Source: Muribaculaceae bacterium (lineage in GTDB: Bacteria > Bacteroidota > Bacteroidia > Bacteroidales > Muribaculaceae). From it: a stretch of DNA of 64,000 bases. The position numbers and the translations under genes were made by a program. Position 1 is the first letter of the stretch. Each line of letters opens with the position of its first letter. The stretch lies in assembly GCA_017436845.1 (NCBI GenBank), contig JAFSCJ010000003.1, forward strand, positions 1 through 64,000. The letters are read 5' to 3'. The notes below the pieces were generated by a model that was not told where the DNA came from, did no database searches, and saw only the letters and a list, made by a program, of their open reading frames with translations. Positions 13,166 through 34,907 of this stretch are shown piece by piece.

Positions 13166-14740
13166 TTAAATATTTGCATTGATGAGAACCTTAGAAAATT
13201 TATTTCCTTGACGTTTAACATAAATACCTGGAGTCAGATCAGTATTATTTATTCTAACTCCGTGTAAATTATAGTATTCAGCAGGAGAATTGTCATTATA
13301 GATAACATCATCAATTCCTGCAGATGGTTTTATTTCAATTGTGAATGTACGAGAGACAGAAGCTCCGGAAACCGTATTAGTAGCAATAATTGTTACTGAA
13401 CATGATGTTGCTCCGGTAACAGAATCGGCATAATCACTTGCTGATATTACTTCTGTTGTTACCAAATTTCCATCGACTACTTCAAATGGAACTTTAGCAT
13501 AACCAAATAAAGTTTTCTTCCCTTGTACTTTATAGGTATAAGAAGGATTAGACGCCTCACTAACAACAGTTACCTCACCAACGATAGTTCCTGTCGGTTG
13601 ATTTTCTGAAACTGATGTATTTGACAATGTTATATCTGTCGGATTTTCGCTTGGAGCTCGAATACCTATCACCATGCCATGTTGCGCAGTATAGTTTGCT
13701 CCTATTTGGCTATCTTGAAGATTATCGATTGTAAACCATCCATCGCCATAGCCTCCCCAACCCCAATTGATGTGGAAATAAGCGCTACCATCATATCCGT
13801 CAAGATTAAAGGCATGTCCATATCCTTTTGTTAGATCGGCACCACTATAACAAATTGCACGACCTTCATTAAGCTCTGTTAATATTAAATCTTTCCATGT
13901 AGTGTTACTATTTATTGCATCACGTGAATAATAAGTAACAGAATTAGGATAAGAGAAATAGGTCTTTAGTGCATTTACGATATAGGAATTTTGTGTACCT
14001 GACCCATCAATGCCGTAATCCATTTTCACTGATACTCCACAATGCCACAATAAACGAGCGACATCATCCTTGCCATTTGCTCCACTCAATATATTTGACC
14101 AATTATAAGTCGGCTCTGCATCATAGTTACATGCTACGTCTCCAAAGTTTGAGCTAACATAGGCACAATAGCCATTTGGGCGCTCCGGATATTGAGCAAC
14201 ACTCATTGCTTGCGCCATTGAAACAGCAACGCACCCAACGACAGCTGTTCCACTTGAATTACTTGGACAATATTTATTATAGGGGCTTCCTTGATTCCAA
14301 TATACTGAAATTATAGGTTCGATTTTGCCAACTGAAACAGCCATAGGCTCTATTGTCTCAGTTTCGATCCACCCGCGTGCTTGAATTCCATTCAATTTAG
14401 AATTTTCGACAACTTGTTTGCCATATTCCTCAAGCCACATTTTAGCATTATCGGGAACTCGTGTTATTTGATATTCCGATTTTTCCGAATATCCGATAAG
14501 AGGATTTGACATATCATCAGCACTTATAAGCGCCCATCCCTGTGGTGCAAAGTTAATTACATAATAGGCTTTCACTCCACTGTTATACACAGGCATTATT
14601 GACTTAACGCTTTCTACCGAGATATCTTTTTGTTGCATTAGGCGTATAGCGACAGCTGAAGCTTCACTCTGCGAAACCTCTTTTGCCGTTCCCGACATTG
14701 CAACTACCAATCCTAATAAGAACAATCTGATTTTCTTCAT
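13166..14740 (-). CDS. C10-family cysteine peptidase (streptopain-like) with C-terminal sorting tail, copy A
   Basis: 524 aa. Signal peptide residues 1-19. An N-terminal propeptide-like inhibitor region follows (about 20-135, with YYVINFAPQGWALISADD). The C10 catalytic domain (about 140-355) has Cys170 in VVGCVAVSMAQAMS, His309 in GYGHAFNLDGYDG and the NWGWGGYGDGWF segment. A cadherin-like strand domain starts near 366 with LSNTSVSENQPTGTIVGEV. The C-terminus has YNLHGVRI and PGIYVKRQGNKFSKVLI, typical of type IX-secreted surface proteins. It should be an extracellular endopeptidase activated by loss of its propeptide. The gene lies behind a strong hairpin in the minus operon and is paralogous to 27674-29290. 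Confidence 0.88.
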   Translation of the reverse strand: MKKIRLFLLGLVVAMSGTAKEVSQSEASAVAIRLMQQKDISVESVKSIMPVYNSGVKAYYVINFAPQGWALISADDMSNPLIGYSEKSEYQITRVPDNAKMWLEEYGKQVVENSKLNGIQARGWIETETIEPMAVSVGKIEPIISVYWNQGSPYNKYCPSNSSGTAVVGCVAVSMAQAMSVAQYPERPNGYCAYVSSNFGDVACNYDAEPTYNWSNILSGANGKDDVARLLWHCGVSVKMDYGIDGSGTQNSYIVNALKTYFSYPNSVTYYSRDAINSNTTWKDLILTELNEGRAICYSGADLTKGYGHAFNLDGYDGSAYFHINWGWGGYGDGWFTIDNLQDSQIGANYTAQHGMVIGIRAPSENPTDITLSNTSVSENQPTGTIVGEVTVVSEASNPSYTYKVQGKKTLFGYAKVPFEVVDGNLVTTEVISASDYADSVTGATSCSVTIIATNTVSGASVSRTFTIEIKPSAGIDDVIYNDNSPAEYYNLHGVRINNTDLTPGIYVKRQGNKFSKVLINANI

Positions 14741-14837: not shown

Positions 14838-16490
14838 TTATTTAATAGATTTGGGACTCAAAACAGAGACATTGTTTATACTAAACATTTTTGCGCTACG
14901 AGATAATGATGTTGCAGCTACAGCCTTTGTTCCATATGTTTCCGCAGCAGCGTCATACCAACCAAGACCATCAATATAATATCCCCACAATGTAGGAGAT
15001 GAGAATGAGCCATCGGCTGAGAATTGTAAAATAATATCATCATCTGAACCTCCATTCGAGAAAAAGACCTCAGCTATAGTTGTATTACCCTGTGCGTCTA
15101 TTCTAAATTCATATTTGCCCAAACTTTGATCAATTGGGATAGCAATTGTTCCATAATCGCCATTGCATATACCTTTTATTGATGTTCCTTCAGCAAATAA
15201 ATTAGAAATAACAACACCTGTTTCTGATTCTGGATCAGCGGTTATACTAATATTTTCTGCATATACAGAATTATCAAAATAGCTTTTCCATTGCATAGTA
15301 TAATCTCCTAAGAAATTTTCACGAGTAAAGCCATAAGAGTACAACCATGCTTCAGCAAATTCTATTTCTTCATTAGGGTTCCCATAAGCATCGACAAATG
15401 CTCCGGCAGGAATTTTAATTCCTACATAATCGCCATATGCAGGCGCTTGTGGAAGAACAAATGCAAAATTGTTTCTTGTTGTCATCCATTGACTTGACGA
15501 CAACTTAATCGATGTTTCAGACTGAGCGTTAACGTATGTTACTACAACTTCTTTTCTTATGACATTTCCGTCTTCATCAACAGGATAGTAAACAGCACCA
15601 TTCATAGTTAAAACGCCCATAAAATCAGCCCATTTATTGAAAGCTGAGCCTAATTCAGGAGCTGTAACATTTTCTTCTGAAATTGCAAAAGGCACATTAG
15701 TATTTTGACCTGACAAACCAACAAAATCGCCTTCTGATTCACTAAATCCGCTTGTGATAGCTGCACACTTGTGTCCATAAGAATCAACAAATGCACCTTC
15801 TTCCCAACTGAATGACACATAAGCACCTGCAGGAGCTGATTTAGTCAAGATTGCAATCTGGTTATCTTGTACTTCCACTACAATTGAATCAGCGTCCACA
15901 TCAACAGGCGCAACTACTCCATTGTATAGTTCCATAATTTTGTAGTATTTAGCTGTTACAGCCACATCTTCTACACGAGTGATCGCTTCAGAAAATGCAA
16001 CATACATCACGCCATTATCGGGATCATATTCATAATCTACAGGTTTTGGGGCGAGAGCATCGGTAGTTGTAACAGATTCAACAGCAATTTCTCCTATAAC
16101 ACTTTTCTCATTAGCAGCAACAGCATAGATTTGATATGTAGTGTTGGGGGATGCGATAGGAGCACCTTCAGCATTACGCATATTGTAGGTAAAAGTTGCT
16201 TGTTCTTTAGCATCAACTACAATAGTTCCATAAGTACTTGAATAAAGTCCTTTGTAAAGTGATTCTGCATTTAATGCAACAGGTGCATCAGCTTCATCAA
16301 CCAAAACAGAGTAGAACATAGTACCCTCTGAAGGTGTTACAGTAAATGTAAATGTAGAGTCGGTTGTTTCTGTTACCTCAATCGCAACAGAAGGAGCATC
16401 TCCATATTTTTCTGTAACAGGATCATCAAAGTCAGCACAACCGGTCATTAATAGACCCATTGTCATTAAGCTATATATAATCTTTTTCAT
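14838..16490 (-). CDS. Surface lipoprotein with Ig-like SbsA-type repeats
   Basis: 550 aa with lipobox LMTGCADF (Cys18). The mature protein is a string of beta-sandwich modules. One about residues 30-130 resembles a fibronectin type III fold (TTYQIYAVAANEKS). Two related modules follow around 135-245 and 265-385; each ends in a shared motif, EEGAFVDSYGHK and PAGAFVDAYGNP, as in SbsA-type Ig domains. A C-terminal lipocalin-like or BT-type domain starts near FLGDYTMQWKSYFD. It is probably a surface binding protein working with the SusCD pair upstream. The plus operon has no counterpart. The ligand is unknown; without carbohydrate enzymes nearby, a protein or peptide is as likely as a glycan. 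Confidence 0.7.
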   Translation of the reverse strand: MKKIIYSLMTMGLLMTGCADFDDPVTEKYGDAPSVAIEVTETTDSTFTFTVTPSEGTMFYSVLVDEADAPVALNAESLYKGLYSSTYGTIVVDAKEQATFTYNMRNAEGAPIASPNTTYQIYAVAANEKSVIGEIAVESVTTTDALAPKPVDYEYDPDNGVMYVAFSEAITRVEDVAVTAKYYKIMELYNGVVAPVDVDADSIVVEVQDNQIAILTKSAPAGAYVSFSWEEGAFVDSYGHKCAAITSGFSESEGDFVGLSGQNTNVPFAISEENVTAPELGSAFNKWADFMGVLTMNGAVYYPVDEDGNVIRKEVVVTYVNAQSETSIKLSSSQWMTTRNNFAFVLPQAPAYGDYVGIKIPAGAFVDAYGNPNEEIEFAEAWLYSYGFTRENFLGDYTMQWKSYFDNSVYAENISITADPESETGVVISNLFAEGTSIKGICNGDYGTIAIPIDQSLGKYEFRIDAQGNTTIAEVFFSNGGSDDDIILQFSADGSFSSPTLWGYYIDGLGWYDAAAETYGTKAVAATSLSRSAKMFSINNVSVLSPKSIK

Positions 16491-16510: not shown

Positions 16511-17350
16511 TTATTGCTTAGTCCAAACTGCATTCACCATGATATTATACCATGAATTTGTTCCTGTTAAGTTAGATCCAAACCAGTCATTAATAACAAT
16601 TGTTCCATTATCATTAATTACCGCAGTAATATTACCTCCCGTTGGAATAGATTCATCTCCGCTTGGTCCATAAAATCCTTCAAGTTTAGCATCGTTAACA
16701 AGATCTTGTCCTACAGGAATTGCAATTTCAGTTTTGTCAGCATTTACGATACCATATACCATATATCCAGTAGCTGTTCCTGCAGGAACCATAGGATATA
16801 TCCAAACTTTTTGAATATCTTGATCATCTTTCAATATTTGGAAGCTCCATTCGGTTTCGCCATTAAAATATGATTCACCTTTACCCACATATTTGCCTAA
16901 AATTGCTTGCAATGGATGTTCGTTATCAGCGATTGTTACTACACATGTAGAAACAGCGCCCATGTTAACACCTGTTACAGCAGTAATTTTTAACACAATC
17001 TTTTTGTCACCGCCAAATTCATCATTATCAATAATTTGAATGTTAAAATTTTGTGTTGGAGCATCTTTTGTGAAAGTTATTGTATTGCTTTCAGGTAGAG
17101 TAAAATGCACTCCTTCTATAGCTGTAGAAGTAGAATCAACCTCTATTACAGCTTCTCCATCAAGACCGGCAAGAGAGGTAAGCAACACAGGAACATCGAT
17201 TGAGCCGCCAAATTCATCAACGCTCAAAGCTGTATTTGTAAATGCAATAAATGCATCAGCATCATTAAATTCCGGTTGATCATTACTACAAGAAGCAAAA
17301 AGCATCATGCTTGCAACTGCCGCACCGTATATAAAATTAAACTTTTTCAT
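16511..17350 (-). CDS. Calx-beta-like surface lipoprotein, copy A
   Basis: 279 aa with lipobox LFASCSND (Cys20). Residues about 35-145 form a Calx-beta-type domain: VDEFGGSIDVPVLL, IEGVHFTLPES, NFNIQIIDNDEFGGDKKIVLKI and VTIADNEHP. The C-terminal half (GKYVGKGESYFNGETEWSF onward) is a separate beta-rich domain. Calx-beta modules bind calcium or act as structural spacers. The gene follows SusD with 27 nt between and is matched in position and domain order by 26715-27593 in the other operon. It is likely an accessory surface lipoprotein of the import complex. Confidence 0.7.
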   Translation of the reverse strand: MKKFNFIYGAAVASMMLFASCSNDQPEFNDADAFIAFTNTALSVDEFGGSIDVPVLLTSLAGLDGEAVIEVDSTSTAIEGVHFTLPESNTITFTKDAPTQNFNIQIIDNDEFGGDKKIVLKITAVTGVNMGAVSTCVVTIADNEHPLQAILGKYVGKGESYFNGETEWSFQILKDDQDIQKVWIYPMVPAGTATGYMVYGIVNADKTEIAIPVGQDLVNDAKLEGFYGPSGDESIPTGGNITAVINDNGTIVINDWFGSNLTGTNSWYNIMVNAVWTKQ

Positions 17351-17377: not shown

Positions 17378-18808
17378 TTAATAACCTGGGTTTTGTTCCA
17401 TGTTAGGATTAGCCTCCATTTCGCGTTTAGGAATAGGCAAAGCCCACATATAGCTTGGGAACTCAACATTTTGATTTACGTTGTCATCAAAATCAGTACG
17501 AGTCATAGATTTTTTACAACGTGCATAGTCATAGTGAATGTGACCTTCAAAAGCAAGTTCACGACGACGTTCATCAAAGATTCCTTGATCTGTAGCCGCG
17601 GCAGCAGTACATCCACGTTTTTCAGCTATTGCAGCAAGGTCTCCAGCTGCAGTAGCACCTGCAACTGATGCACCATTTAACAATGCCTCAGCACGATTCA
17701 AATACATTTCAGAAATACGAATCAATGGCACATTAGTTGTACGTGGTTGAACCCCTTCTTTACCGGTATATTTACCACAATAGTATTCACCATTGTGCTC
17801 TTGGTACATAGCTAAACGCACATCACCATCTTCATAAAGATTGATTAGATCCATTGTTGCACAAACATCAGCTGATCCATTGTCGCCAAAATTAGTTATA
17901 TAAGGTAAGTGAGTCCAACCTGAAGCATCCCAATAAGAATTGAGTTTATCTCCAAACACTTCAAAGATATATTCCCCACCTTCAGTAGCTATTGAAGCAC
18001 TGAACATAGTTTTGTAAGTATTAGCATCAGCAAGGCTGAATTTACCGCTATTAATAACTTTTGTTGCATAGTCAGCAGCACCTTGCCAATTACCCATATA
18101 TAGGTACACACGAGACAAGAATGCTTGGATAGCAGGTTTTGTAGCAGCCGCTACAGGGTCATTAACACCTGCACGTTGATATCCATCAGCCATTAACGCT
18201 TCGGCATCGGTCAAGTCTTTTACGATTTGAGTATAAACTTCTGCAACAGTATTACGTGCCGGAGTGCCATTTTCGGTTACAAGAACTACAGGCACACCTA
18301 AACTCTCAGGTTGATAAGTATATGGTTGTGCATAAGTTGTAACCAAATTATGATAGCAGAATGCACGAACAAAAAGAGCTTCGGCCATGAGATTATCAAG
18401 ATCGGCTTGAGTTGCATTGCGCTCTTGATTGATATCTATATTAGGAATTGCATTAATCACGTTATTTGCCCATGCAATAGTATAATATGCATAAGACCAC
18501 ACAGGCGATGTTGAATTTTCATTATAAATCCATGTTGTGTAACCTGTATAACGTCCTGACCCCGGCTCTTGCAAAGGTTTTTTTGCATTACCACAACGCA
18601 TTTCCGAACTTAAAATGTATTCGCCATCAAACCAAGATGCACTTTGAAACATAGTGTATAATCCGGCAGTAGCATTATTAATACCATCGTAAGACGATAG
18701 CGTCAATTCATTGCTTTGTGACAGTTCCGGTTCTTGTTCCAAGAATCCATCGCAAGAAACAAGCATCATTGCCGAAAGAACTGCGCAACTAAATAATATC
18801 TTTTTCAT
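17378..18808 (-). CDS. SusD/RagB-family surface substrate-binding lipoprotein, copy A
   Basis: 476 aa. Lipobox MLVSCDGF (Cys19). The helical TPR-like SusD core is visible through FLEQEPELSQ at the N-terminus, ALFVRAFCYHNLVTTYAQPY (about residues 143-162), RVYLYMGNWQGAADYATKVI, LIRISEMYLNRAEALL and the conserved end LPIPKREMEANPNMEQNPGY. SusD proteins form the lid of a SusC barrel and capture the substrate. It lies 29 nt after the SusC gene. With peptidases in the operon, the RagB model (peptide binding) fits better than glycan binding. Confidence 0.92.
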   Translation of the reverse strand: MKKILFSCAVLSAMMLVSCDGFLEQEPELSQSNELTLSSYDGINNATAGLYTMFQSASWFDGEYILSSEMRCGNAKKPLQEPGSGRYTGYTTWIYNENSTSPVWSYAYYTIAWANNVINAIPNIDINQERNATQADLDNLMAEALFVRAFCYHNLVTTYAQPYTYQPESLGVPVVLVTENGTPARNTVAEVYTQIVKDLTDAEALMADGYQRAGVNDPVAAATKPAIQAFLSRVYLYMGNWQGAADYATKVINSGKFSLADANTYKTMFSASIATEGGEYIFEVFGDKLNSYWDASGWTHLPYITNFGDNGSADVCATMDLINLYEDGDVRLAMYQEHNGEYYCGKYTGKEGVQPRTTNVPLIRISEMYLNRAEALLNGASVAGATAAGDLAAIAEKRGCTAAAATDQGIFDERRRELAFEGHIHYDYARCKKSMTRTDFDDNVNQNVEFPSYMWALPIPKREMEANPNMEQNPGY

Positions 18809-18837: not shown

Positions 18838-21813
18838 TTAGAATGTAACATCAAGACCCAATACAAATGTCTTAGTAACTGGATAAATACCATATCCAAG
18901 ACCATCTACACCACGTTCAGGATCCCAGAAATTAACATCATGGAATGTATATAGATTCATTCCTGTTGCATAAACTCTCACATTATCCATTCCTGCTTTT
19001 TTGATAAGTTTTTTAGGCAATGTATATGATAGTGTAACATCTTTGATGCGGAAATAATCGCCATCTTCCAACCAACGGTCAGAACTCATTGAGTTAGAGC
19101 TTGTAGTGTTACCTGCGATTGGTTTTGGATTACATCCTGTATCTCCAGGTTTTTTCCAATAGTTAAGAGCTGAAGTCATTTGATTCATGCTCATTTGTGT
19201 ACCATCACTATTCAAGTAAGAATATTCAGCACCGATATATACTTTATTTCCGGTTTTGAATTCACCTAATACGCTTAGACTAAAGTCTTTCCATGTAACT
19301 GTTGTATTGATACCACCCGTAAATTTAGGCTCAGGGCTTCCGCAATAATACCAACGAGCATCGCTATAGTTGTTAGTTAATTTACCATCTTCAGTTACCC
19401 AAAGAGCTTCACCATTAACAGGATTTACTCCATAATAGTCTTTCAAGTAGAATGTGTACATTCCCTCTCCAACGACATGACGTAAGCGACTGTCTCCTGA
19501 ATAAGAAAGGAATTCTTCACCAGCAAGTTCAAGAATTTTTGTTTTGTTGTGAGATAAATTAAATCCTACATTCCATGACCAATCTTTATTACGAAGAATA
19601 TTAACATCTACTTGCAATTCAACACCTGTATTGCGCATTGAACCAATATTGTCAAGCACCGAGTTGAAACCTGTTGTAGAAGATTGAGTTCTTGTCAAAA
19701 GCATGTCGGTAGTTTTACGAGTATAGAAATCGATAGTACCTGTTACTCTATCGAAGAAACCAAAATCAATACCTACGTTAAATGATTTATTCTTTTCCCA
19801 TGACAAATCAGGATTAGCCGGAGTTGATGGAACAAGACCATTCACACCATTATAGTAAGAAGAAGCGTAAACACCATAGTGAGCATAGTTTCCAATTCCA
19901 TCATTACCATTGATACCATAGCTTACGCGCAATTTAGCCAAATTCAACCATGTGTAATCTCTCAAGAATGCTTCATTATGAGCATTCCATGATGCACCAA
20001 GTGCATAGAAGAAGCCCCATTGCTTGTTAGACCCAAATTTAGAGCTACCATCATAACGACCTGACAATTGCAAGAAATAGCGAGAATCATAACTATAATC
20101 AAGAATACCAAGGAATGACAATAGTGTTGATGTTGAATTGCTATATCCTACTTCATAGTTGGCACCTGAAGAATGATATGGTATTTCAGGATTTAATGTA
20201 TCAGAATATCCATAGTATTGATATCCATAGTCATGAGTAGCTTCTTGACCAAGCAATACGCGCAAATTGTGTACATCATTGTAAACATCCTGCCATGTAG
20301 CAGTATTTGATGTAGTTAATGTGCGGTAAGTAGTATTTGTTGATTGAAGCACAGGATATCCTGTAGAATAATTACTTGCTTCTTGTGACCAATAGCGACG
20401 ACCTTCCTTAAATTTCATCTCAGCACCATTATTTGAACGAAGGGTTAATTGACGAATAGGTTTATATTCTAAGTACATGCTACCTTGAATATTATATGTC
20501 TTTTCCCATTGTTCATCATACTCAGCAGTTGCACGAGGGTTAGTATATGAATTTTCAGGGATATTTGTGTTATGATTACCCATTTCATCATAAGCAGGAG
20601 TCCATGGCAACATGGTCATACCGGCAAATGCAGGGTTTGAATAATACAATGATTGCATTGGTATATCTTCAGAATATGTATACCCAAGATTTAAGCGAGC
20701 ACCTGTCTTAAGATATTTACTCAACTCATGATCAACATTGAAACGAGCTCCAATTTTATTATAATCGACACCATAATAGATACCTTGATTATCGTGATAA
20801 TTCAAAGAACTATAATAGTTTGTTTTGTCGTTACCTCCTGAAGCGTTGATTTCATACTCTTGCATCTTACCAAGACGAGTAAAATGATCCATCCAATTTG
20901 TTTGCTCTTTAGCAAGCAAAGAATATGGGCGATAATATGAAGCTCCTACTGTTGGGTCATCAGGGTTTTTGCCAGCATTAATAACAGCATCACGTTGATA
21001 TTGAAGCAACTCTTGCCCCGACATAACTCCTACATTGTTGTCATTTGCCAATGTTGAGAGACCGAAACGCGCGCGTACATTAAATGTACTCTTGCCTGAT
21101 TTGCCACTTTTTGTTGTGATCAAAATAACCCCATTGGCAGCACGAGAACCATAAACACTTGCAGCTGCAGCATCTTTCAACACTGTAATATTTTCAATGT
21201 CGTTAGGATTGATTGCAGCAATAGCATTGTTAGTGTTTACAAGATCAGCTTCATCTCCACTTGATACAGGAATACCATCAACAACATACAATGGACCATT
21301 CCCTGCATTAATAGAAGATGTACCACGAATACGAATGCTTGTAGATGATCCCGGTTGTCCTGATGATTGTGTAATCATCACACCTGCCATTTTTCCTGAA
21401 AGCATCTTGTCAATAGATGTTGCGGGAATATCAGCAATTTCATCTGCATTTAATGTTGTGATGGCACCTGTTTTAGCTTCGCGCTTTTGGCTACCATAAC
21501 CAACAACAATAACATCATCAAGAGTATTATCACTACTCTCTAATGTGATAAGCATATTATCACTCACGTTTACTGTCTTTGTGGCCATACCCACATAAGA
21601 AACTTTAATTTGCTTAACATTGTCATTAATGTTAAGCACAAAACCACCATCAAAGTCAGTAGCGACACCATTGCCTCCACCTATAGGCAACACAGTAGCC
21701 CCAATCATAGGCTCATTGTCACTTGCGTTAACTACCTTTCCACGCACTGTGCGAGCGTCAGCGGCAAAAGCGATGGTACAAACTGCGATTAAAAAGAATA
21801 ACAGCTTTCTCAT
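18838..21813 (-). CDS. SusC/RagA-family TonB-dependent transporter, copy A
   Basis: 991 aa. Signal peptide to about residue 20 (ADA|RT). A carboxypeptidase-regulatory-like domain follows (about 22-95) with MIGATVLPIGGGNGVATD, then a TonB-box and plug region (VIVVGYGSQKREAKTGAI, IRIRGTSSINAGNGPLYVVDG, VLKDAAAASVYGSRAANGVI) and a 22-strand-type barrel ending in FVLGLDVTF. It imports the substrate captured by SusD, using TonB energy. Its N-terminal domain is unusually close to that of copy B at the DNA level (21641-21711 against 22232-22302, inverted). No ECF sigma or anti-sigma gene lies beside it. Confidence 0.94.
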   Translation of the reverse strand: MRKLLFFLIAVCTIAFAADARTVRGKVVNASDNEPMIGATVLPIGGGNGVATDFDGGFVLNINDNVKQIKVSYVGMATKTVNVSDNMLITLESSDNTLDDVIVVGYGSQKREAKTGAITTLNADEIADIPATSIDKMLSGKMAGVMITQSSGQPGSSTSIRIRGTSSINAGNGPLYVVDGIPVSSGDEADLVNTNNAIAAINPNDIENITVLKDAAAASVYGSRAANGVILITTKSGKSGKSTFNVRARFGLSTLANDNNVGVMSGQELLQYQRDAVINAGKNPDDPTVGASYYRPYSLLAKEQTNWMDHFTRLGKMQEYEINASGGNDKTNYYSSLNYHDNQGIYYGVDYNKIGARFNVDHELSKYLKTGARLNLGYTYSEDIPMQSLYYSNPAFAGMTMLPWTPAYDEMGNHNTNIPENSYTNPRATAEYDEQWEKTYNIQGSMYLEYKPIRQLTLRSNNGAEMKFKEGRRYWSQEASNYSTGYPVLQSTNTTYRTLTTSNTATWQDVYNDVHNLRVLLGQEATHDYGYQYYGYSDTLNPEIPYHSSGANYEVGYSNSTSTLLSFLGILDYSYDSRYFLQLSGRYDGSSKFGSNKQWGFFYALGASWNAHNEAFLRDYTWLNLAKLRVSYGINGNDGIGNYAHYGVYASSYYNGVNGLVPSTPANPDLSWEKNKSFNVGIDFGFFDRVTGTIDFYTRKTTDMLLTRTQSSTTGFNSVLDNIGSMRNTGVELQVDVNILRNKDWSWNVGFNLSHNKTKILELAGEEFLSYSGDSRLRHVVGEGMYTFYLKDYYGVNPVNGEALWVTEDGKLTNNYSDARWYYCGSPEPKFTGGINTTVTWKDFSLSVLGEFKTGNKVYIGAEYSYLNSDGTQMSMNQMTSALNYWKKPGDTGCNPKPIAGNTTSSNSMSSDRWLEDGDYFRIKDVTLSYTLPKKLIKKAGMDNVRVYATGMNLYTFHDVNFWDPERGVDGLGYGIYPVTKTFVLGLDVTF

Positions 21814-21870
21814 AGTTTTACATAAAAATTAAACATATATTATTTACTCTCTTTCTATTTATAATTTGTG

Positions 21871-21892
21871 CAATCTCTTGCTAAGAGATTTC
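21871..21892 (-). repeat. 22-bp inverted repeat, left copy (leader of SusC copy A)
   Basis: This is the exact reverse complement of 22046-22067. The repeat itself folds: arms AATCTCTT and AAGAGATT close a GCT loop, and on this side the flanks TTGTG and CACAA extend the palindrome. It falls at the expected 5' end of the minus-operon mRNA, 79 nt before the SusC ATG when counted from 21892. Confidence 0.9.
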
Positions 21893-22045
21893 ACAACTAT
21901 ACAATTGCCTAATTTTTAAGTAGTAACACGCGTGCTCTGCTGTAAAATATCAAATTTTAGATTTTGGCAAAATGTTAAATCTGGAGAAAAAATGCTTTCA
22001 TTTGTTTATAATAAGAGAATTTATACTATCTTTGCAATTTGATAT
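21893..22045. promoter_or_regulatory. Candidate invertible promoter segment between the two SusCD operons
   Basis: These 153 bp lie between exact 22-bp inverted repeats. A -33 TTTG at 22001-22004 and a -7 TATCTTTGC at 22027-22035 (22-nt spacer) point to the plus operon, with a start near 22041, right at the right repeat. Facing left there is only TATAGTTG, one mismatch from TAnnTTTG, without a TTTG at proper distance. Inversion would turn the good promoter to the minus operon with the same geometry. The repeats and promoter are seen; inversion is inferred. Otherwise the region is an ordinary divergent promoter with duplicated leader hairpins. Confidence 0.55.
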
Positions 22046-22067
22046 GAAATCTCTTAGCAAGAGATTG
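22046..22067 (+). repeat. 22-bp inverted repeat, right copy (leader of SusC copy B)
   Basis: Exact reverse complement of 21871-21892 and itself an 8-bp hairpin with a 3-nt loop. It begins about 5 nt after the predicted transcription start and 81 nt before the SusC copy B ATG. The leader beyond it (CAAATTAAGAATGGAAGAAAG) resembles the opposite leader. Confidence 0.9.
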
Positions 22068-22126
22068 CAAATTAAGAATGGAAGAAAGTTTATTTAATAT
22101 TAATGTATGTCTAATTTAAATTAAGT

Positions 22127-25093
22127 ATGAAAAAGCTGTTTCTATTACTTTTGACAGTCTTGACTATTTCTCTTAGTGCATATGCGCAAAAGAAGGTGTC
22201 GGGTACTGTAATTGATGCCGGAACAGGTGAACCTCTAATTGGTGCGACTGTTTTGCCGGTAGGTGGAGGCAATGGTGTGGCAACTGACCTTGATGGTAAG
22301 TTTACATTGACAGTTCCATCTAAAGTGACTCAGATTAATGTGTCTTATGTGGGTATGCAATCTCAAACTGTTGCTATCTCAGAAAACATGACCATTGCTC
22401 TTGCAGTAAATAACACAACTCTTGATGAGGTAGTTGTAACCGGTTATGGTTCTGCTCGTAAACTTGGTTCTATCGTAGGTTCTGTAACTGCTGTTAGTGG
22501 TGATATCGTAGAAAATTCTCCGGTAGCTAACATCGGTGACGCTCTTCAAGGGCAAGTTGCCGGTCTTCAAGTATTCACTTCAAGTGGTGAGCCAAGTAGC
22601 TCTGCAAGTATGCGTATTCGTGGTGTCAGCTCAATTAACAGTAGCTCTGAACCATTGTTTATCCTTGATGGTTCTCCAATTTCATCAGGCGCATTTACTG
22701 CATTGAACCCTAACGATATTGAAACAATGACAGTATTGAAAGATGCGTCAGCAACAGCTATCTATGGTTCTCGTGCTGCTAATGGTGTTGTAATCTTGAC
22801 AACTAAAAAAGGTAAACGTGGACAAAAAGCAAAAGTTCAAGTTAGCGCTCAATATGGTATCTCTAAAATGACAGGTGACCGTATGGATATGATGAACGCT
22901 GAAGAATGGTTGAACTTCCAAGAAATGCTTGACCCATCAATGAAAAATAATGCAGCATTCCAAGCTGAAAAACAATTCTATATTGATAATGGTATTTCTA
23001 CTGACTGGGCTGATGTATTTTTTGGCGGATCTGCTCCAATGCAACAATATGATCTTAGCATCACTGGCGGTACTGAAGCATTGAACTATTACCTATCATT
23101 CAGCCACTATGATGCAGATGGTATTATGGACGACTCTAATCTACGTCGTGAAACTTTGCGCTCAAACATTGATGCAAGCATCAACCAATGGATTCGCGTA
23201 GGTGCAAACTTGAGCTTGTCTTATCAAAAATATATTACAGCAGCGTTTGGCAATACTGCTAACTCTGTATATAACAAAGCATACGCATCTCGTATCTATC
23301 GTCCTGACCAATCTTACTATGAAATTCTTCGTAATGAAGATGGCTCATTTGCCGGATATGGTGATCGTCTTGACTATTTTGATAAACTTGGTTACTATAA
23401 CCCATATTATTTGTCAGAAATTCAACCAGGTCACAAAGATATGGTTCGTATAAATGGAGGTACATTTATTAACCTTAACCCTATCAAAGGTTTGAATATC
23501 CGAGCAGCACAAGGTGTTGAAGCATTTGACTATCGTTCATCAGGTGTAGCACTTCCTACAGGCCCATTTGAAGGTAACGGTTCTGCAAGCGAATCTTTCC
23601 AACGTTACTATCAATTCACTTATACTAATACTGCTGAATATCGTTTCAACATTGAAAAATTGCACAATGTTACTCTTTTGGCAGGTCAAGAATCTATCAT
23701 TACTAAGAATGAATCATTTGGTGTAAGTGTAGATGGTTTGACTGATACTCGTCTTATGTTGATGAGCTCAGCTTCAATCCCAACTCTTCCTTCTCACAGC
23801 AAATATGACAAAGTATTTAACTCATTCTTTGGAACATTAAGCTACAATTATGATGAAAAATACTTTGCCGACTTTACATTCCGTCGTGACGGGTCTTCAT
23901 TGTTTGCTAAGAATAAACAATGGGGTAACTTCTGGTCAGCAGGTGCTATGTGGAATATCAAGAAAGAAGAATTCATGAAAGACCTTACTTGGCTTAATGC
24001 ATTGCAATTCAAAGCAAGCTATGGTTTGATTGGTAACTCTTCAGGTCTTGACCCATATATGTCTCTTGGTCTTATCGGTGACGGCCCATTGTATAATGGC
24101 GTAGGCGGTACAGCTATTGCTAACTCTGCTAACCCTGACTTGACTTGGGAGGTTGTTAAATCAACTAACTTAGGTATTAGTGCACGTGTATTGGATCGCG
24201 TAAGTGTAGATCTTGAATACTACAACCGTTTGACAGAAGATATGTTGATGGATATTCCTTATTCATTTACAACAGGTTTCTCTTCAGGATGGGGTAACGT
24301 AGCAAGTATGCGCAACCGTGGTTTCGATGCTACAGTTAATGTTGATATCTTCAAAAATTTCTATGGTGTTGACTGGAGTGTATCAGCAAACATTAACTAC
24401 AACCAAAACGAAATTACAGAATTGTTCAACGGCCGTGACGAATATGTATTGGCTAACACTGGTTTGAAACTTCAAGTAGGTAAACCTTATGGTGAATATT
24501 TCTATACTCGTTGGGCAGGTGTTGACCCACGCGATGGTTACAACATGTGGAAAGACAAAAACGGTAACTTGACAAAAGTATTCTCTGAAGATGATGCAGT
24601 ATTTACAGGAAAACAACGTTACGCTCCATGGTCAGGTGGTCTTGGAACTCGCGTAAGCTGGAAAGGTATCACTGTAAGCGCTGACTTCTCATTCATGCTT
24701 GGTCAACACTTGATTAACAATGAACGTTGGTTCGTTGAAAACCCACAATTTGCATCTAAAAATAACCAAACTACTAAGATGTTTACAATGTGGCAAAAAC
24801 CAGGTGATATCACAGAAATTTCAACTCCTGAATCACCAATGCAATTTGATACTCACTTGCTTGAAGATGCTTCATTCATGCGTATGAAGAACTTGACAGT
24901 AAGCTATAATCTTCCTCAAAACATTATCCGTAAAACAGGATTTGTTGAAGGATGTAAAGTATTCTTTATCGGACGTAACTTGTGGACAATTACTGACTAT
25001 CAAGGTTATGACCCTGAAGTTGATAACAACGTTCAACTTGGTAACTATCCTAATACTAAACAAGTTTCTTTCGGTCTTGAGTTAACATTCTAA
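22127..25093 (+). CDS. SusC/RagA-family TonB-dependent transporter, copy B
   Basis: 988 aa. Signal peptide to about residue 20 (AYA|QK). The regulatory-like domain (about 22-95) has LIGATVLPVGGGNGVATD. The plug follows (VVVTGYGSARKLGSIVG, MRIRGVSSINSSSEPLFILDG, VLKDASATAIYGSRAANGVV) and a barrel ends in VSFGLELTF. It is paralogous to copy A and heads the plus operon behind the stronger promoter. The codon choice is strongly biased (many CGT, GGT, AAC), which suggests high expression. Substrate is inferred to be peptide because the operon encodes a C10 peptidase and no glycan enzyme. Confidence 0.94.
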   Translation: MKKLFLLLLTVLTISLSAYAQKKVSGTVIDAGTGEPLIGATVLPVGGGNGVATDLDGKFTLTVPSKVTQINVSYVGMQSQTVAISENMTIALAVNNTTLDEVVVTGYGSARKLGSIVGSVTAVSGDIVENSPVANIGDALQGQVAGLQVFTSSGEPSSSASMRIRGVSSINSSSEPLFILDGSPISSGAFTALNPNDIETMTVLKDASATAIYGSRAANGVVILTTKKGKRGQKAKVQVSAQYGISKMTGDRMDMMNAEEWLNFQEMLDPSMKNNAAFQAEKQFYIDNGISTDWADVFFGGSAPMQQYDLSITGGTEALNYYLSFSHYDADGIMDDSNLRRETLRSNIDASINQWIRVGANLSLSYQKYITAAFGNTANSVYNKAYASRIYRPDQSYYEILRNEDGSFAGYGDRLDYFDKLGYYNPYYLSEIQPGHKDMVRINGGTFINLNPIKGLNIRAAQGVEAFDYRSSGVALPTGPFEGNGSASESFQRYYQFTYTNTAEYRFNIEKLHNVTLLAGQESIITKNESFGVSVDGLTDTRLMLMSSASIPTLPSHSKYDKVFNSFFGTLSYNYDEKYFADFTFRRDGSSLFAKNKQWGNFWSAGAMWNIKKEEFMKDLTWLNALQFKASYGLIGNSSGLDPYMSLGLIGDGPLYNGVGGTAIANSANPDLTWEVVKSTNLGISARVLDRVSVDLEYYNRLTEDMLMDIPYSFTTGFSSGWGNVASMRNRGFDATVNVDIFKNFYGVDWSVSANINYNQNEITELFNGRDEYVLANTGLKLQVGKPYGEYFYTRWAGVDPRDGYNMWKDKNGNLTKVFSEDDAVFTGKQRYAPWSGGLGTRVSWKGITVSADFSFMLGQHLINNERWFVENPQFASKNNQTTKMFTMWQKPGDITEISTPESPMQFDTHLLEDASFMRMKNLTVSYNLPQNIIRKTGFVEGCKVFFIGRNLWTITDYQGYDPEVDNNVQLGNYPNTKQVSFGLELTF

Positions 25094-25120: not shown

Positions 25121-26683
25121 ATGAAAAAACTAAATATTTTTGCAGCTTCTCTGATTGCGTTGGGACTATTTTCCTGCGACATGGATAAATATCCCTATGA
25201 TGCATTGGAAGAATCTACATACATGACAACTATGAATGACTTCGCTAATGCAAGAGTAGGTCTTTACTCTTACTATAGAAGTCTTACAACCGGTGGTTAT
25301 ATCTTGACACCGGAAATCCAAGCCGATGATTTTAATGCAGTTTCAGGCTTTTCAAACATTTATGGCAACTCCTACCGTTGGGATTTCCAATCAACAGATG
25401 GAAATATTGAAGCTATATGGTCGGCTTATTATGCTCACATAGCACGTGCCAATTATTATATTGACAGCTATACCAAGATTGTAGAAGGTGAAAACACATT
25501 CACAGAAGAAGAAATTGCTACTCTTGGTGCATACGTAGCTGAAGCTTATTTCACTCGTGCTAATGCTTATTTGACATTGGCAGGTTATTTCTGTAAAGGT
25601 TATGATGACGCTACAGCTGAAACAGATTTAGGATTGCCGTTGCAATTGACTTATGCTCCTTCTTCTGATGCTTCAACTTATCCCGGTCGTTCATCGTTGA
25701 AAGCAACTTATGCTCAAATCATGAGCGATATTGCTGAGGCAGAACGTTTGATTAATCCAAATTTGATTTTGTCAAAAGATCAAAAAGCATTGAATTACAT
25801 TTCAGCTGATGTTGTAACAGCGTTGAAAGCTCGTGCTGCATTGCAAATGAAAGATTATGCAACAGCTGTTACAGCTTCTACTTCGCTAATCGCATCAGGC
25901 AATTATCCTTTGATTGATGCAAATACACAAGAAGGCGTTAATGCATTCTATGATTTGTGGGAATTTGACGAAGGTACTGAAGTAATGTGGCAAATTTACT
26001 TGTCTCCTGACGAGCTTGGTTCAGCTACCGGAACAACTTTCTGGGGTCAATACAAAGAAAGCGATCCAAGCCAACAAGTTATGGATTATATCCCATCTCA
26101 AAATTTGGTTGATTTGTATGACGTGAATGATATTCGTTTGTATACATTCTTTGCTCCATTTACTTTGACTGTTGCAACAGGCGCACAAGGTAATATCTAT
26201 GTATTCAACAAATATCCGGGTAACCCGGAATTGAATGCAAGCCTAAATGTTGATGATCACTATACCAACTATCCAAAACCATTCCGCATTTCAGAACAAT
26301 ATCTAATTGCCGCTGAAGCTTATGCAGGAAGCAAAAATTTGGGCAAGGCAAGTGAATACTTGAATGCGTTGAAATCAAAACGTATACTTGGTTATCAAGC
26401 CAATAATTATTCAGATGAGGTTACTTTCATGTCAGCACTTCAAGATGAACGTCACAGAGAGTTGGTAGGTGAAGGTTTCCGTCTTGTTGACTTGAAACGT
26501 TGGGGTCTTGGTGTAAATCGTGGTAATGCTCCACAAAATGCAAATCTTGTACTTTTCCCGGGAGCTGAAACTACAACTGCTCTAAATAAAGCGGCTAACG
26601 ATTTCCGCATGGTATGGCCTATTCCAAAGTCTGAAATGGATGCTAATCCACAACTTAAAGGTCAACAAAACCCCGGTTACTAA
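25121..26683 (+). CDS. SusD/RagB-family surface substrate-binding lipoprotein, copy B
   Basis: 520 aa with lipobox LFSCDMDKYP (Cys19). SusD features include the N-terminal PYDALEESTYMTT region, YVAEAYFTRANAYLTLAGYF (about residues 143-162), ALKARAALQMKDYATAV, FRISEQYLIAAEAYAGSKN, DERHRELVGEGFRLVDLKRWG and the end WPIPKSEMDANPQLKGQQNP. It pairs with the SusC 27 nt upstream. It is clearly longer than copy A, so the binding face may differ. Confidence 0.92.
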   Translation: MKKLNIFAASLIALGLFSCDMDKYPYDALEESTYMTTMNDFANARVGLYSYYRSLTTGGYILTPEIQADDFNAVSGFSNIYGNSYRWDFQSTDGNIEAIWSAYYAHIARANYYIDSYTKIVEGENTFTEEEIATLGAYVAEAYFTRANAYLTLAGYFCKGYDDATAETDLGLPLQLTYAPSSDASTYPGRSSLKATYAQIMSDIAEAERLINPNLILSKDQKALNYISADVVTALKARAALQMKDYATAVTASTSLIASGNYPLIDANTQEGVNAFYDLWEFDEGTEVMWQIYLSPDELGSATGTTFWGQYKESDPSQQVMDYIPSQNLVDLYDVNDIRLYTFFAPFTLTVATGAQGNIYVFNKYPGNPELNASLNVDDHYTNYPKPFRISEQYLIAAEAYAGSKNLGKASEYLNALKSKRILGYQANNYSDEVTFMSALQDERHRELVGEGFRLVDLKRWGLGVNRGNAPQNANLVLFPGAETTTALNKAANDFRMVWPIPKSEMDANPQLKGQQNPGY

Positions 26684-26714: not shown

Positions 26715-27593
26715 ATGAAACTAAATAAAATATTTGCACTGATGCTCGCTGCTACAATGTTTACAGCTTGTTCTGATGATGACAAGAGCTGGAACAGCAA
26801 CGATGTAACAGTAAATATGCTTGAAAGCGAAGTTTCCGTTAAGGAAAACAATGGAATATTTAATGTTCCTGTTTCTGTCGACGGTGAAATGAATGGTCCA
26901 GTAGAGGTAACTGTTGAAGTTGCAGAGGCAGGAGCAAATCCAGCTATGGATGATGTTCATTACGTTGTTACAGAAAAAACTATTGTGATTGTTGCTGAAG
27001 ATGGTGTTGGCAATATTGAAATCAGAGCGGTAGATGATGATGAAATCAATGAAGCTCGCACATTTACAGTTACAATTGTAGATGTTAAGGGTGGTGTTGT
27101 CGGTCAAAATGCAACTGCTACTGTTTACCTAAAAGATAATGACTCGGTATTCTATGAAAAATTGCAAGCTAATTGGAAAATGAACGTAACAAGTAAGTAC
27201 GACGGTGCTGTTGCATGGAATACTAAAATCGTTGGTTATCAAGAAGGAGATGCCGGTTATAACAAAACTCTATTTGTAACAGGAGTTCTTGGTTATGATT
27301 TCTGTCAACTTGAATTGAATTATTATTTCGACATGGACACTAAAACAGGCTATGTTGAAATTCCTTTGGGACAAGTTGTTGCAGCTTATGATGCCTCTAA
27401 TGACATCTTTGCTTGTGGTCTGACTCCTGAAGGGAATCTTACACTAAGTGGCTCAGTTAAGGGTACATGGAATGAAGACATGACAGAAATTACATTTGAA
27501 GACAAAGATATTGTGTTCTATGTAATGAATGGTTCTACTGGTGCCGGTCTTGGTCCATTTGACTGGGTTTGGGGTGTCACAATGACTCGTTAA
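26715..27593 (+). CDS. Calx-beta-like surface lipoprotein, copy B
   Basis: 292 aa with lipobox MFTACSDDD (Cys19). Residues about 30-142 match the Calx-beta pattern (VSVKENNGIFNVPVSVDG, DDVHYVVTEKT, NIEIRAVDDDEINEARTFTVTI, VYLKDNDS). The C-terminal half (WKMNVTSKYDGAVAWNTKIV onward) is a second beta domain with acidic loops. Same place and domain order as 16511-17350 in the minus operon, which supports common origin, although the sequences have diverged. It probably serves the surface complex; the ligand is unknown. Confidence 0.68.
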   Translation: MKLNKIFALMLAATMFTACSDDDKSWNSNDVTVNMLESEVSVKENNGIFNVPVSVDGEMNGPVEVTVEVAEAGANPAMDDVHYVVTEKTIVIVAEDGVGNIEIRAVDDDEINEARTFTVTIVDVKGGVVGQNATATVYLKDNDSVFYEKLQANWKMNVTSKYDGAVAWNTKIVGYQEGDAGYNKTLFVTGVLGYDFCQLELNYYFDMDTKTGYVEIPLGQVVAAYDASNDIFACGLTPEGNLTLSGSVKGTWNEDMTEITFEDKDIVFYVMNGSTGAGLGPFDWVWGVTMTR

Positions 27594-27673: not shown

Positions 27674-29290
27674 ATGAAGAATTTCATTAGTTTTTTATTG
27701 TTGCAATTCGTTGTTATATCGGCGTTTGCAACGTTGATAAGCCCTGAAAAAGCACAATCGGTGGCAGAACGATATATCGAGAGCCGTGCCGGTAAAGATT
27801 TCACCGTAAGGTCATCACAAAAAGCTGATGGCGCTTTCTATATTGTTAATTTTGCACCAAAAGGATGGGTTATCGTCGCTGCCGACGATGTTGTAAAGCC
27901 CATTATCGGTTATTCATTATCAGGAAGCCTTGATATGAATAAAATGCCTGATAATGTGTCATATATTCTTGATGGCTATAAAAAACAGATAAAATATATA
28001 GTGAGCACTGAAACAAAAGCACATGTAGGATGGGATAATCCGGAATATGTGCGTTCTCGTTCAGGGAATGAAGTGGAACCACTCATTAAAGTTAATTGGA
28101 ATCAAAGTGCCCCTTATAATGTGTATTGTCCCCGCCAAACAGCTCTTGTGGGGTGTGTAGCGGTTGCGATGAGTCAGGCAATGAGCGTGCAGAGACATCC
28201 GTCTCGTCCTGTTGGCTCTGTTTCATACAGCAGTGCTAATTATGGTTCATTGAGAATAAATTTTGATGAGCAACGTGCCTATAATTGGGATGATATAATG
28301 TCAGGAGCAAATAATTATGATGAAGCAGCTCGATTGATGTATCATGCCGGAATGAGTGTTAAGATGGACTATGGAGAAGATGGCTCCGGAATACCATCAA
28401 ATCAAGTGAGTCGCATTTCTAATGCTTTAAAAGAAAATTTCTCATATTCTGATGATGTAACCTATTATTGGCGAGACCAATATAGTGGCGATTGGAAACA
28501 ATTAATTGTTAATGAATTGAATGCCGGTCGTGCCGTCATTTATAACGCCATTGACTCAAAAGGTGGTTATGGACACAGTTTTAACCTTGATGGATATGAC
28601 AGCAATGGCTTGTTTAATGTCAATTGGGGTTGGGGTGGATATGGTGATGGCTATTTCTCTATTGACAACTTGCGTGATGGTCGCATGGGTATGAATTATG
28701 ACACCGGTCATGTTGTAGTTGTAGGTATTGGAGCTCCTGATCAACCACTCAAAAGTATTTCTTTGAGTCACAATCGCATCGAAGAAAACTTGCCTGCCGG
28801 CTCGGTAGTTGGTGCTATTGAAGTAAATGGAGAAGCTCCCAAGTCAACTTATAAGTTGAGTGTTCATGGTGTTTACCAAAGTAACATAGGAGGATATGCC
28901 GAAGTCCCATTTGTAATAGAAAATGGTCTATTGAAGACTACTGAATTATTGACAACAACAGGAAAAACATGGAATATTGAAATTTCTGTTGCAGATCCCG
29001 AAAGTGGAGCAGAGCTTACTCAAGGATTTAAAGTTACAGTAGATGCTTGGGCAAGTTTGGAGGAAAAGACTAAATTGAGTTATGATAGACTTAGTCGCAT
29101 GTTCAAGATTGTTACAAAGCACAATGTAACGTATAAGATTTATGACGCAAATAGTAATTTGATTCAAAGTGGGGAATTATCTCCATTGCCTGAATTAGAA
29201 TTTAATGCATCAATTCTTCCTGCGGGAAAAAACAGAATTGAATTGCGTTGTAATGATGAGATTAAGAAACTAAACATTGTCACAAAATAA
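27674..29290 (+). CDS. C10-family cysteine peptidase (streptopain-like), copy B
   Basis: 538 aa. Signal peptide residues 1-19. Propeptide-like region about 20-130 (FYIVNFAPKGWVIVAADD). Catalytic C10 domain about 135-350 with Cys161 in LVGCVAVAMSQAMS, His301 in GYGHSFNLDGYDS and the NWGWGGYGDGYF segment. A cadherin-like segment near 365 (SHNRIEENLPAGSVVGAIEV) parallels copy A. The tail (LPAGKNRIELRCNDEIKKLNIV) is beta-rich like a sorting domain but lacks the PGIY-type ending of copy A. Predicted to be an exported endopeptidase producing peptides for the SusCD pair of its operon. Confidence 0.88.
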   Translation: MKNFISFLLLQFVVISAFATLISPEKAQSVAERYIESRAGKDFTVRSSQKADGAFYIVNFAPKGWVIVAADDVVKPIIGYSLSGSLDMNKMPDNVSYILDGYKKQIKYIVSTETKAHVGWDNPEYVRSRSGNEVEPLIKVNWNQSAPYNVYCPRQTALVGCVAVAMSQAMSVQRHPSRPVGSVSYSSANYGSLRINFDEQRAYNWDDIMSGANNYDEAARLMYHAGMSVKMDYGEDGSGIPSNQVSRISNALKENFSYSDDVTYYWRDQYSGDWKQLIVNELNAGRAVIYNAIDSKGGYGHSFNLDGYDSNGLFNVNWGWGGYGDGYFSIDNLRDGRMGMNYDTGHVVVVGIGAPDQPLKSISLSHNRIEENLPAGSVVGAIEVNGEAPKSTYKLSVHGVYQSNIGGYAEVPFVIENGLLKTTELLTTTGKTWNIEISVADPESGAELTQGFKVTVDAWASLEEKTKLSYDRLSRMFKIVTKHNVTYKIYDANSNLIQSGELSPLPELEFNASILPAGKNRIELRCNDEIKKLNIVTK

Positions 29291-29302: not shown

Positions 29303-30430
29303 ATGAAACATTTGAAATTTACAATATTGGCGTTAGGCTTGACAATGTTCTATTCTTGTAGCTCAGGTGGCGAAGATGAGCCAACCCCCCCCGCATCAGA
29401 TGGTGATGTAACAGTTACAATCTCTACTGAGATATTGACGAAAGCTAATGTAACAACTGCTTTTGCAAGTGGTGATGCTATGAATGTGTTTCCAAAGACT
29501 TATGGCAAAATCGATGCTCCTAACCGTGTTGACAATGTGAAAGCAACACTTTCAGGAGCAAATTGGTCAATGTCTCCTGAGGTTAAAATCTCAAAAGGTG
29601 AGAATGCATTTATATATGCAGTAGCTCCTTATAATGCAGCATATACCGATGCAACTGCTATACCTGTAGATGTTTCGCAACAGATAGATTTGCTATATTC
29701 AGGCTCATATGTACCTGTTTCTTATACAACACATAATGCGAAGCTTGTAATGAAACACGCATTGTCGTTGGTGTCTTTTAATATCAGCAAACAAGGATAT
29801 TCCGGTGCCGGAAATCTTTCAAAAATGTCGATATCAGGAGATAATGTATATACCAAAGGAACAATGAAGGTCGATAATGGGAAAATAACCGGAACATCTA
29901 AGGATGTATTTACATTTAATGTCAGCAAAAAGATTTCGGAGGCAGGGTGGAGCGAAGATCTACCACGCATGTGGCAAATTCCATTCTCAACAAAAATAAA
30001 TAAGGTAAACATTGCAATTACGATTGATAATGTAACTTATAATGTTGAATTCCCTGAGGTAGAAATGAAAAGCGGATATCAATATATCTTCCGCATGGTG
30101 TTGACCGATTATGGTCTTGAATTTATTCCCGGAGCAGTAGAAACAATCTCTTTAAATCAGGAAGAAGATGCGATGTCGGCTTTAAATGGTTATGGAGTAT
30201 TGACTATTACTCACGTTGGAAGTGAATTAATGATACCTGCATTCACCGGAGATGATGTCTTTGGTACTATAACATGGGGCGATGGCGCAAGTTCATCATA
30301 TAAGCCTAAGGCAACACATGTTTATTCAGGAACCTCAGAAAAAGAAGTTGTGATTGAAAGTTGGAATTCTACCGGGTTTGAACTTGACAAATTGACCGGA
30401 ATCGAAACAATCGATTTGACTTCTTATTAA
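29303..30430 (+). CDS. Fimbrillin-like lipoprotein
   Basis: 375 aa with lipobox FYSCSSGGED (Cys19). The fold signature of fimbrillin-like proteins is visible: TVTISTEILTKANVTTAFASGDAMNVFP, then AFIYAVAPYNAAYTD, AKLVMKHALSLVSFNIS, and SGYQYIFRMVLTDYGLEF. A short C-terminal module with TWGDGASSSYKP and HVYSG looks PKD-like. Fimbrillin-like proteins can be pilus subunits or single surface lipoproteins. No other pilus gene is near, so a surface accessory role is more likely here. It ends the plus operon, and its 3' UTR is nearly identical to that after the unrelated 221-aa gene of the minus operon. Confidence 0.65.
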   Translation: MKHLKFTILALGLTMFYSCSSGGEDEPTPPASDGDVTVTISTEILTKANVTTAFASGDAMNVFPKTYGKIDAPNRVDNVKATLSGANWSMSPEVKISKGENAFIYAVAPYNAAYTDATAIPVDVSQQIDLLYSGSYVPVSYTTHNAKLVMKHALSLVSFNISKQGYSGAGNLSKMSISGDNVYTKGTMKVDNGKITGTSKDVFTFNVSKKISEAGWSEDLPRMWQIPFSTKINKVNIAITIDNVTYNVEFPEVEMKSGYQYIFRMVLTDYGLEFIPGAVETISLNQEEDAMSALNGYGVLTITHVGSELMIPAFTGDDVFGTITWGDGASSSYKPKATHVYSGTSEKEVVIESWNSTGFELDKLTGIETIDLTSY

Positions 30431-32587: not shown

Positions 32588-32631
32588 GGTAGGAGGTCTC
32601 TCATAATTATAATACATAGATTAGAAAGTAT

Positions 32632-34347: not shown

Positions 34348-34361
34348 ACGCTCAATAGATA

Positions 34362-34907
34362 ATGGAAAAACAATTATTTACGGTAACGGTATTTTCGGAA
34401 CATCAAGTTGGGTTGCTTAACCAAATCTCGATTATATTTACACGCCGTTGTCTCAATATTGAGAGTCTATCTGTTAGCCCTTCATCAATAGAAGGTGTTC
34501 ATAAATTCACAATCACTTGTTATAGTGATAGAGTGATGATGGAAAAGGTTGTGAAACAGATAGAAAAACGCATCGATGTGTTGAAATCGTTTCTATATAC
34601 CGATGAAGAGATTGTTTATCAAGAGGTGGCTTTGTATAAAGTGCCAACAGACAAATTACTTGATGAGAAAAATCTTGAAGTGATAATACGTAATCACAAT
34701 GCTCGTATCCTTGAGATAACACGAGAATATACTATTATTGAAAAAACAGGTCATTCTGATGAGACAGAGGCATTGTTTGAGGAGTTGAAACGTTACGATA
34801 TACGTCAATTTGTGCGTAGTGGTCGTGTAGCTGTTACAAAATCTCCTGTTGAATATGTTGATAGATTTATAGAGGAACAAAATCGCAGAAAAGAAAGTTT
34901 GAAATAA
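34362..34907 (+). CDS. ilvN: Acetolactate synthase, small (regulatory) subunit
   Basis: 181 aa. An ACT domain at residues 1-80 (FTVTVFSEHQVGLLNQISIIFTRR then NIESLSVSPSS) should bind valine. The C-terminal domain (EVALYKVP to VRSGRVAVTKSP) is the usual activation part. Length and position are typical of the ilvN/ilvH family. Confidence 0.93.
   Translation: MEKQLFTVTVFSEHQVGLLNQISIIFTRRCLNIESLSVSPSSIEGVHKFTITCYSDRVMMEKVVKQIEKRIDVLKSFLYTDEEIVYQEVALYKVPTDKLLDEKNLEVIIRNHNARILEITREYTIIEKTGHSDETEALFEELKRYDIRQFVRSGRVAVTKSPVEYVDRFIEEQNRRKESLK

Follow-up and report, generated by a model that had tools for sequence, protein, structure and literature searches.

Promoter inversions known from Bacteroidales mostly switch an operon on or off, and a single promoter on an invertible segment is reportedly at the heart of the Campylobacter fetus sap S-layer switch described by Dworkin and Blaser in 1996. 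Three systems of Bacteroides fragilis, each as described in PMC4747536, form the closer background of the locus studied here: the tyrosine recombinase Tsr19/BF2766, which inverts a local and a distant promoter; the serine master invertase Mpi, which has capsule promoters among its 13 target regions; and the SusC/SusD shufflon of Tsr0667, which rearranges multiple SusC/SusD gene-cluster segments. More generally, the neighborhoods of SusC/SusD genes are frequent places of inversion in gut Bacteroidales (PMC10939037). In literature searches on inversion or phase variation in Muribaculaceae, Muribaculum, Duncaniella, or S24-7, none of the papers listed dealt with this family. The principle of promoter inversion is known, but the site rule reported below, its spread across the family, and the one-of-two layout of SusCD operons appear to be undescribed.

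Here, we analyze a stretch of 64,000 nucleotides from a Muribaculaceae genome (in the following, the 64-kb window) and find that the segment at 21869-22069 is, judging by its sequence and by the fate of related segments in other genomes, a genuine invertible promoter. Very probably, this segment forms a one-of-two switch between the two operons that diverge from it.

Two divergent SusC-SusD operons around a single promoter

The operons on either side of the segment are, by sequence comparison, diverged paralogs that are much alike in gene order. They comprise the following genes, with operon membership of the last gene on each side assigned from spacing:

22127 to 25093, plus strand: SusC-like TonB-dependent receptor, 988 aa (Plug, CarbopepD_reg_2)
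25121 to 26683, plus strand: SusD-like lipoprotein, 520 aa (SusD_RagB, SusD-like_3)
26715 to 27593, plus strand: Calx-beta protein, 292 aa (PF03160)
27674 to 29290, plus strand: C10 (streptopain-like) peptidase with Spi-type prodomain, 538 aa (PF01640, PF13734)
29303 to 30430, plus strand: fimbrillin-like protein, 375 aa (Mfa_like_1)
18838 to 21813, minus strand: SusC-like TonB-dependent receptor, 991 aa, 35% identical to the plus SusC
17378 to 18808, minus strand: SusD-like lipoprotein, 476 aa, 27% identical to the plus SusD
16511 to 17350, minus strand: Calx-beta protein, 279 aa, 25% identical to the plus Calx-beta protein
14838 to 16490, minus strand: protein of unknown family, 550 aa, no Pfam match
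13166 to 14740, minus strand: C10 peptidase with Spi-type prodomain, 524 aa, 45% identical to the plus C10 peptidase
12488 to 13153, minus strand: last gene of the minus operon, 221 aa, no Pfam match

The operon pair is placed between a branched-chain aminotransferase-like gene (11246-12268) and ilvD/ilvB/ilvN-like genes (30758-34907). The nearest congener (G010) has the plus operon at this place and lacks the minus operon there, so that the divergent layout may have been acquired recently; in that genome, the aminotransferase gene is the immediate neighbor of the plus SusC gene, which has a fixed promoter. As a separate observation, the two SusC genes in the window share 84% identity over 70 nt at their 5' ends (21646-21715 and 22228-22297, in inverted orientation), compared with 35% for the whole proteins, and SusC genes across the genus have a similar 5' end.

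The intergenic segment between the operons spans around 200 bp and is bounded by two inverted-repeat arms that are exact complements of each other. An exact inverted repeat had been predicted at this place, and it is indeed real and perfect, though its arms measure 25 bp each instead of 22 bp. With roughly 64000 x 200 / 4^25 or about 1e-8 inverted 25-mer pairs expected this near to each other, the arms are not a product of chance. The segment combines two hallmarks of an inverton, intergenic inverted repeats around approximately 100-300 bp and an outward-facing promoter inside, beside one of the arms:

21869 to 21893, no strand: left arm of the inverted repeat, 25 bp (TGCAATCTCTTGCTAAGAGATTTCA), perfect complement of 22045-22069
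21874 to 21888, plus strand: left recombination site TCTCT-TGCTA-AGAGA of a site class conserved in the family, with half-sites TCTCT and AGAGA and the central 5 bp (N5) at 21879-21883
21894 to 22044, no strand: interior of 151 bp between the arms with the promoter inside, considered invertible from its arms and its homology with loci seen inverted in relatives
22001 to 22034, plus strand: Bacteroidales-type promoter from a consensus scan, with -33 TTTG at 22001-22004, a 22-nt spacer, and -7 TATCTTTG at 22027-22034, facing the plus operon
22045 to 22069, no strand: right arm of the inverted repeat, 25 bp, perfect complement of 21869-21893
22050 to 22064, minus strand: right recombination site, with its central N5 (22055-22059) reading TGCTA on the minus strand, equal to that of the left arm

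When both strands of 21780-22130 were scanned for TTTG/TAnnTTTG, this promoter was the only perfect match, and the best candidate on the minus strand was an imperfect AAAATTTG with TTTA. The original prediction of a good promoter that faces only the plus operon, with no proper counterpart in the minus direction, was therefore borne out by both results. The same scan, to which other promoter types are invisible, picked up nothing beyond the segment that could serve the minus operon. The assembly of this species shows one orientation, with the promoter toward the plus operon. Turning 21869-22069 in silico restored the arms unchanged, removed the perfect promoter from the plus operon, and made it face the minus operon. 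From the -7 box to the ATG, the distance is 92 nt for the plus operon as assembled and 90 nt for the minus operon after this in silico inversion, just as anticipated from the expectation that a flip would give the minus operon a like spacing; the distances from the repeat core to the ATG are similarly matched (59 and 61 nt).

A class of paired sites across the family

The site in each arm recurs widely among Muribaculaceae. Across 397 family genomes, the pattern ATCTCTTNCTAAGAGAT occurs at 59 places compared with 1 for the reversed control; nearly all of these places form inverted pairs, and N is equal in both arms of 34/34 pairs. Since the same half-sites are found with other centers beside recombinase homologs, the general form of the site can be written as TCTCT-N5-AGAGA. 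Such sites stand 173-203 bp apart as inverted pairs in 113 of 387 family genomes and in 18 of 30 genera, with 0 control pairs of the reversed pattern in the same 387 genomes. Outside the family, 7 genomes from an order-wide sample of 393 contain site pairs; a few genomes of other Bacteroidales families have up to six pairs each, with N5 almost always equal (L289-L295). The only second exact site-like match in the 64-kb window, at 9436-9450, is unpaired.

Among 100 pairs that we examined, N5 takes 34 different values and is nevertheless equal between the two arms in 96 inverted and 3 direct-orientation pairs, while the single discordant pair is a cross-match spanning two adjacent cassettes. Such variation between loci together with equality within each pair is what crossover homology predicts. 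The identity of the arms per position is 1.0 through the 15-bp site, a value partly imposed by the search (ten half-site bases) and by choosing concordant pairs (the center, with none discordant there), and lies at around 0.3-0.4 just a few bases outside. In most pairs the arms are 17-22 bp long compared with 25 bp in the window, and in 60 of 63 pairs a -7 box adjoins one arm and not the other. Most pairs look like simple ON/OFF switches, and 28 of 96 stand between two outward-facing genes; divergent SusC genes with these sites also occur in G214, G148, and G108.

In the 2.25-Mb genome to which the window belongs (G000), the 17-bp core class is found at one further locus, a second site pair on contig C11 (C11:101210/101408, spanning 101210-101424). 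Its sites lie 198 bp from each other and precede another SusC-like gene, with N5 TACTA, an imperfect right arm (AAGAGTT), and a TAAATTTG -7 box toward this 1098-aa SusC-like gene 166 bp downstream, and it is probably another switch like the segment in the window. A matching site pair, again with N5 TACTA, lies between divergent SusC genes of the congener G001, where the promoter faces the minus gene and the minus SusC has an apparent second fixed promoter outside the segment. G001 additionally carries a second site pair elsewhere in its genome.

Several observations on this site class go beyond the layout seen in the window. The divergent SusC genes of G108, G148, and G214 (L248, L249, and L258) have three consecutive sites between them, together with one or two promoters, and neighboring sites in direct orientation at these loci would predict deletion as well as inversion. 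Judged by eye, some pairs (L116, L145, L118, L147, and others, several of them with an adjacent recombinase) precede UpxY/NusG-type capsule-regulator-like genes, and other pairs precede an HNH-like or DNA methyltransferase-like gene. Contigs of G236 (C11 and C81; L076 1-300 and end of L126) and G322 (C9; start of L131) break off at a distance of exactly 55 nt from the edge of a site, and one 38-bp segment end in G236 is joined to two different flanks. These contig ends resemble k-mer graph breaks from mixed orientations, or from exchange between loci with the same N5, and are suggestive only; we rejected them as proof of mixed orientation because repeats between loci could also explain the double flanks in G236. 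The idea that N5 serves as an insulating address between loci of one genome was likewise not supported, given that N5 is shared in 2/47 within genomes compared with 3.7% between genomes (permutation P = 0.75); selection for different N5 at the loci of one genome therefore does not seem to be at work.

Inversion of orthologous segments between relatives

Three orthologous loci of this site class, none of them the window's own, differ between relatives in the orientation of the bracketed DNA, so that both orientations are on record for these loci and one orientation, from one assembly, for the species of the window. The first is that of G128:C49 and G077:C12, whose flanks are 99.6% and 94.3% identical over 1 kb and whose interiors align with 94% identity over 159 bp only as reverse complements; N5 has changed jointly in both arms, reading TGGGA in one genome and TGGCA in the other. 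Comparing G122 with G147, we found collinear flanks with the promoter half of the segment reversed (100% identity over 63 bp). The asymmetric center (ACT/AGT) of this locus (L133/L134) is turned between the two species relative to both flanks and promoter, which indicates that site polarity is not fixed in evolution. At the third locus, compared between G108 and G148, three sites form two cassettes between divergent SusC genes, and one cassette is reversed while the other is not. Taken together with the paired sites in 113/387 genomes and the single promoter in the segment, these three flipped loci support the original prediction of an invertible promoter that chooses between two operons.

A candidate recombinase that would act in trans

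The inverted segment had initially been likened to those of the serine recombinase Mpi, with a recombinase expected to act from elsewhere. The first of these proposals fails, since the genome (G000, 99.9% complete) encodes no serine recombinase (PF00239), which excludes an Mpi-type enzyme, and since it is a tyrosine recombinase that adjoins sites of this class; the second gains support from a candidate on contig C20. This protein is one of five tyrosine recombinases in the genome, besides XerD, a XerC-like protein, and two integrases of 371 aa and 508 aa, and it has the Phage_integrase-type architecture with a SAM-like core-binding domain that is expected for a Tsr-type system:

73936 to 74838 of contig C20 (L082 8934-9782), minus strand: Tsr-type tyrosine recombinase, 282 aa from ATG (PF13102, PF00589)

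Homologs of the C20 protein are encoded at most 400 bp from the pair in 28 of 96 cases, or in 22 of 90 without the loci fetched via the recombinase, and the C20 protein is 46-54% identical to recombinases beside site pairs. Of the recombinase families in this genome, only that of the C20 protein turned up next to a pair in the first set of loci, and a search of the genome revealed no other recombinase of the C20 subfamily. A recombinase next to its own target repeat is thus seen in relatives (the 28/96 pairs) and not in this genome, where the C20 gene has no site pair beside it and a search for a degraded pair there gave nothing beyond chance. What the C20 gene keeps of its N-terminal arm domain is the initial 43 codons, followed by a TAA and then an open frame of 282 codons that covers the core-binding and catalytic domains with their motifs conserved. 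With most of its arm-binding domain lost, the enzyme may be weak or dead; arm-less recombinases of 293 aa and 306 aa adjoin intact pairs in G111 and the congener G002. Site pairs are also present in G166 (99% complete) and G001 (84% complete), which have no strong C20 homolog. We further considered recombinase presence as a marker of genomes with TNCTA sites and discarded it, given that the family is found in most genomes with and without sites. Overall, these comparisons make the C20 enzyme, acting in trans, a fair but uncertain candidate.

Proposed mechanism and alternative explanations

We propose that a Tsr-type enzyme flips the promoter and in doing so selects one of two paralogous operons, a scenario that we regard as probable in its entirety. 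The recombinase would bind the half-sites TCTCT/AGAGA in each arm, and strand exchange across the 5-bp center (TGCTA here) would turn the bracketed promoter. In the assembled orientation, this promoter would transcribe the plus operon of SusC, SusD, Calx-beta, and C10 peptidase genes and leave the minus operon without a promoter; in the other orientation, it would drive the paralogous minus operon from a near-equal distance at the expense of the plus operon. Single cells would consequently express one of two related import/peptidase systems and not both. The C20 enzyme would work in trans, with the C11 pair beside a third SusC gene as its second target. That the segment inverts in this species, that the C20 enzyme is the agent, and that expression follows orientation is what we infer from these data.

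Alternatively, the segment could be an inverton that has become frozen in this lineage through decay of its recombinase, leaving the plus operon constitutively on and the minus operon silent. The N-terminal truncation of the only close recombinase in the genome by a stop codon (1 TAA in the match), the lack of another member of the C20 subfamily in this genome, and the single orientation of the assembly would all fit such a history. Nevertheless, we consider it rather unlikely, given that the perfect 25-bp arms exceed the usual 17-22 bp in a way that suggests recent recombination, that the recombinase retains an uninterrupted stretch of 282 aa for its core-binding and catalytic parts, in which the motifs are conserved, that its arm-less relatives adjoin site pairs in G111 and G002, and that the C11 site pair has been retained as well.

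Two further explanations concern what the segment does. It might turn only the plus operon ON and OFF, with the minus operon separately driven or regulated, as could be suspected from the low share of pairs between two outward-facing genes (just 28/96), the apparent second fixed promoter of the minus SusC in G001, and the lack of a minus operon at the corresponding locus of the nearest species, G010. We find this improbable in view of the promoter scan, which matched nothing for the minus operon outside the segment, the matched core-to-ATG distances of 59 and 61 nt, and the paralogy of the two operons with their similar gene order. Still less credible, indeed very improbable, is the idea that the repeats are no recombination sites and flank a fixed promoter as palindromic operators or as hairpins in the transcript: Both arms are hyphenated palindromes in themselves, and the 5' leader contains one of them, but N5 varies by locus and is yet common to both arms, which the spacer of an operator would not need, orthologous loci are flipped between relatives, and recombinase genes adjoin the pairs.

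Implications and comparison with known systems

If the proposed one-of-two switch operates as outlined, a promoter that always has to serve either of two paralogous SusCD-protease systems would turn the choice of nutrient into a heritable either-or state. SusC proteins can serve as phage receptors. They can also be immune targets (PMC10939037). On a practical level, the TCTCT-N5-AGAGA rule enables the listing of such switches in any genome or metagenome of the family, and the orientation of the segment can be counted directly in existing reads. Beyond the window, the data may describe a site system with constant half-sites TCTCT/AGAGA, one tyrosine recombinase family, and a freely evolving 5-bp crossover that is equal within each locus, reminiscent of loxP/FRT, and that here and in several relatives is placed between divergent SusC operons with one selecting promoter and an enzyme in trans; whether this whole is both correct and undescribed is a question on which we are evenly divided.

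With the C. fetus sap switch, the proposed mechanism would share the feature that one promoter serves genes on either side so that one of two products is made, though in another phylum, by another mechanism, and with SusCD-peptidase operons and a small segment instead of S-layer genes and a kilobase segment. Likeness to Mpi, as described in PMC4747536, consists in a small promoter segment between inverted repeats, a recombinase at a distance, and surface functions; the systems differ in that the genome studied here is devoid of serine recombinases and that a tyrosine enzyme adjoins the sites in relatives. As in the Tsr0667 shufflon described in that source, a tyrosine recombinase would alter which SusC/SusD system is expressed. 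Instead of several invertible gene-cluster segments, however, the window would turn only the promoter segment of around 200 bp between two intact operons, with both arms intergenic and the sole extra site (9436-9450) unpaired. The nearest described system in these accounts is Tsr19/BF2766, which has in common with ours a tyrosine-type invertase, short inverted repeats, local and distant targets, and surface operons (PMC4747536). The recombinase of our genome differs in having no adjacent target. What sets the locus apart from Tsr19 as described there is that the promoter in the window is flanked by divergent operons, so that both of its orientations would be productive.
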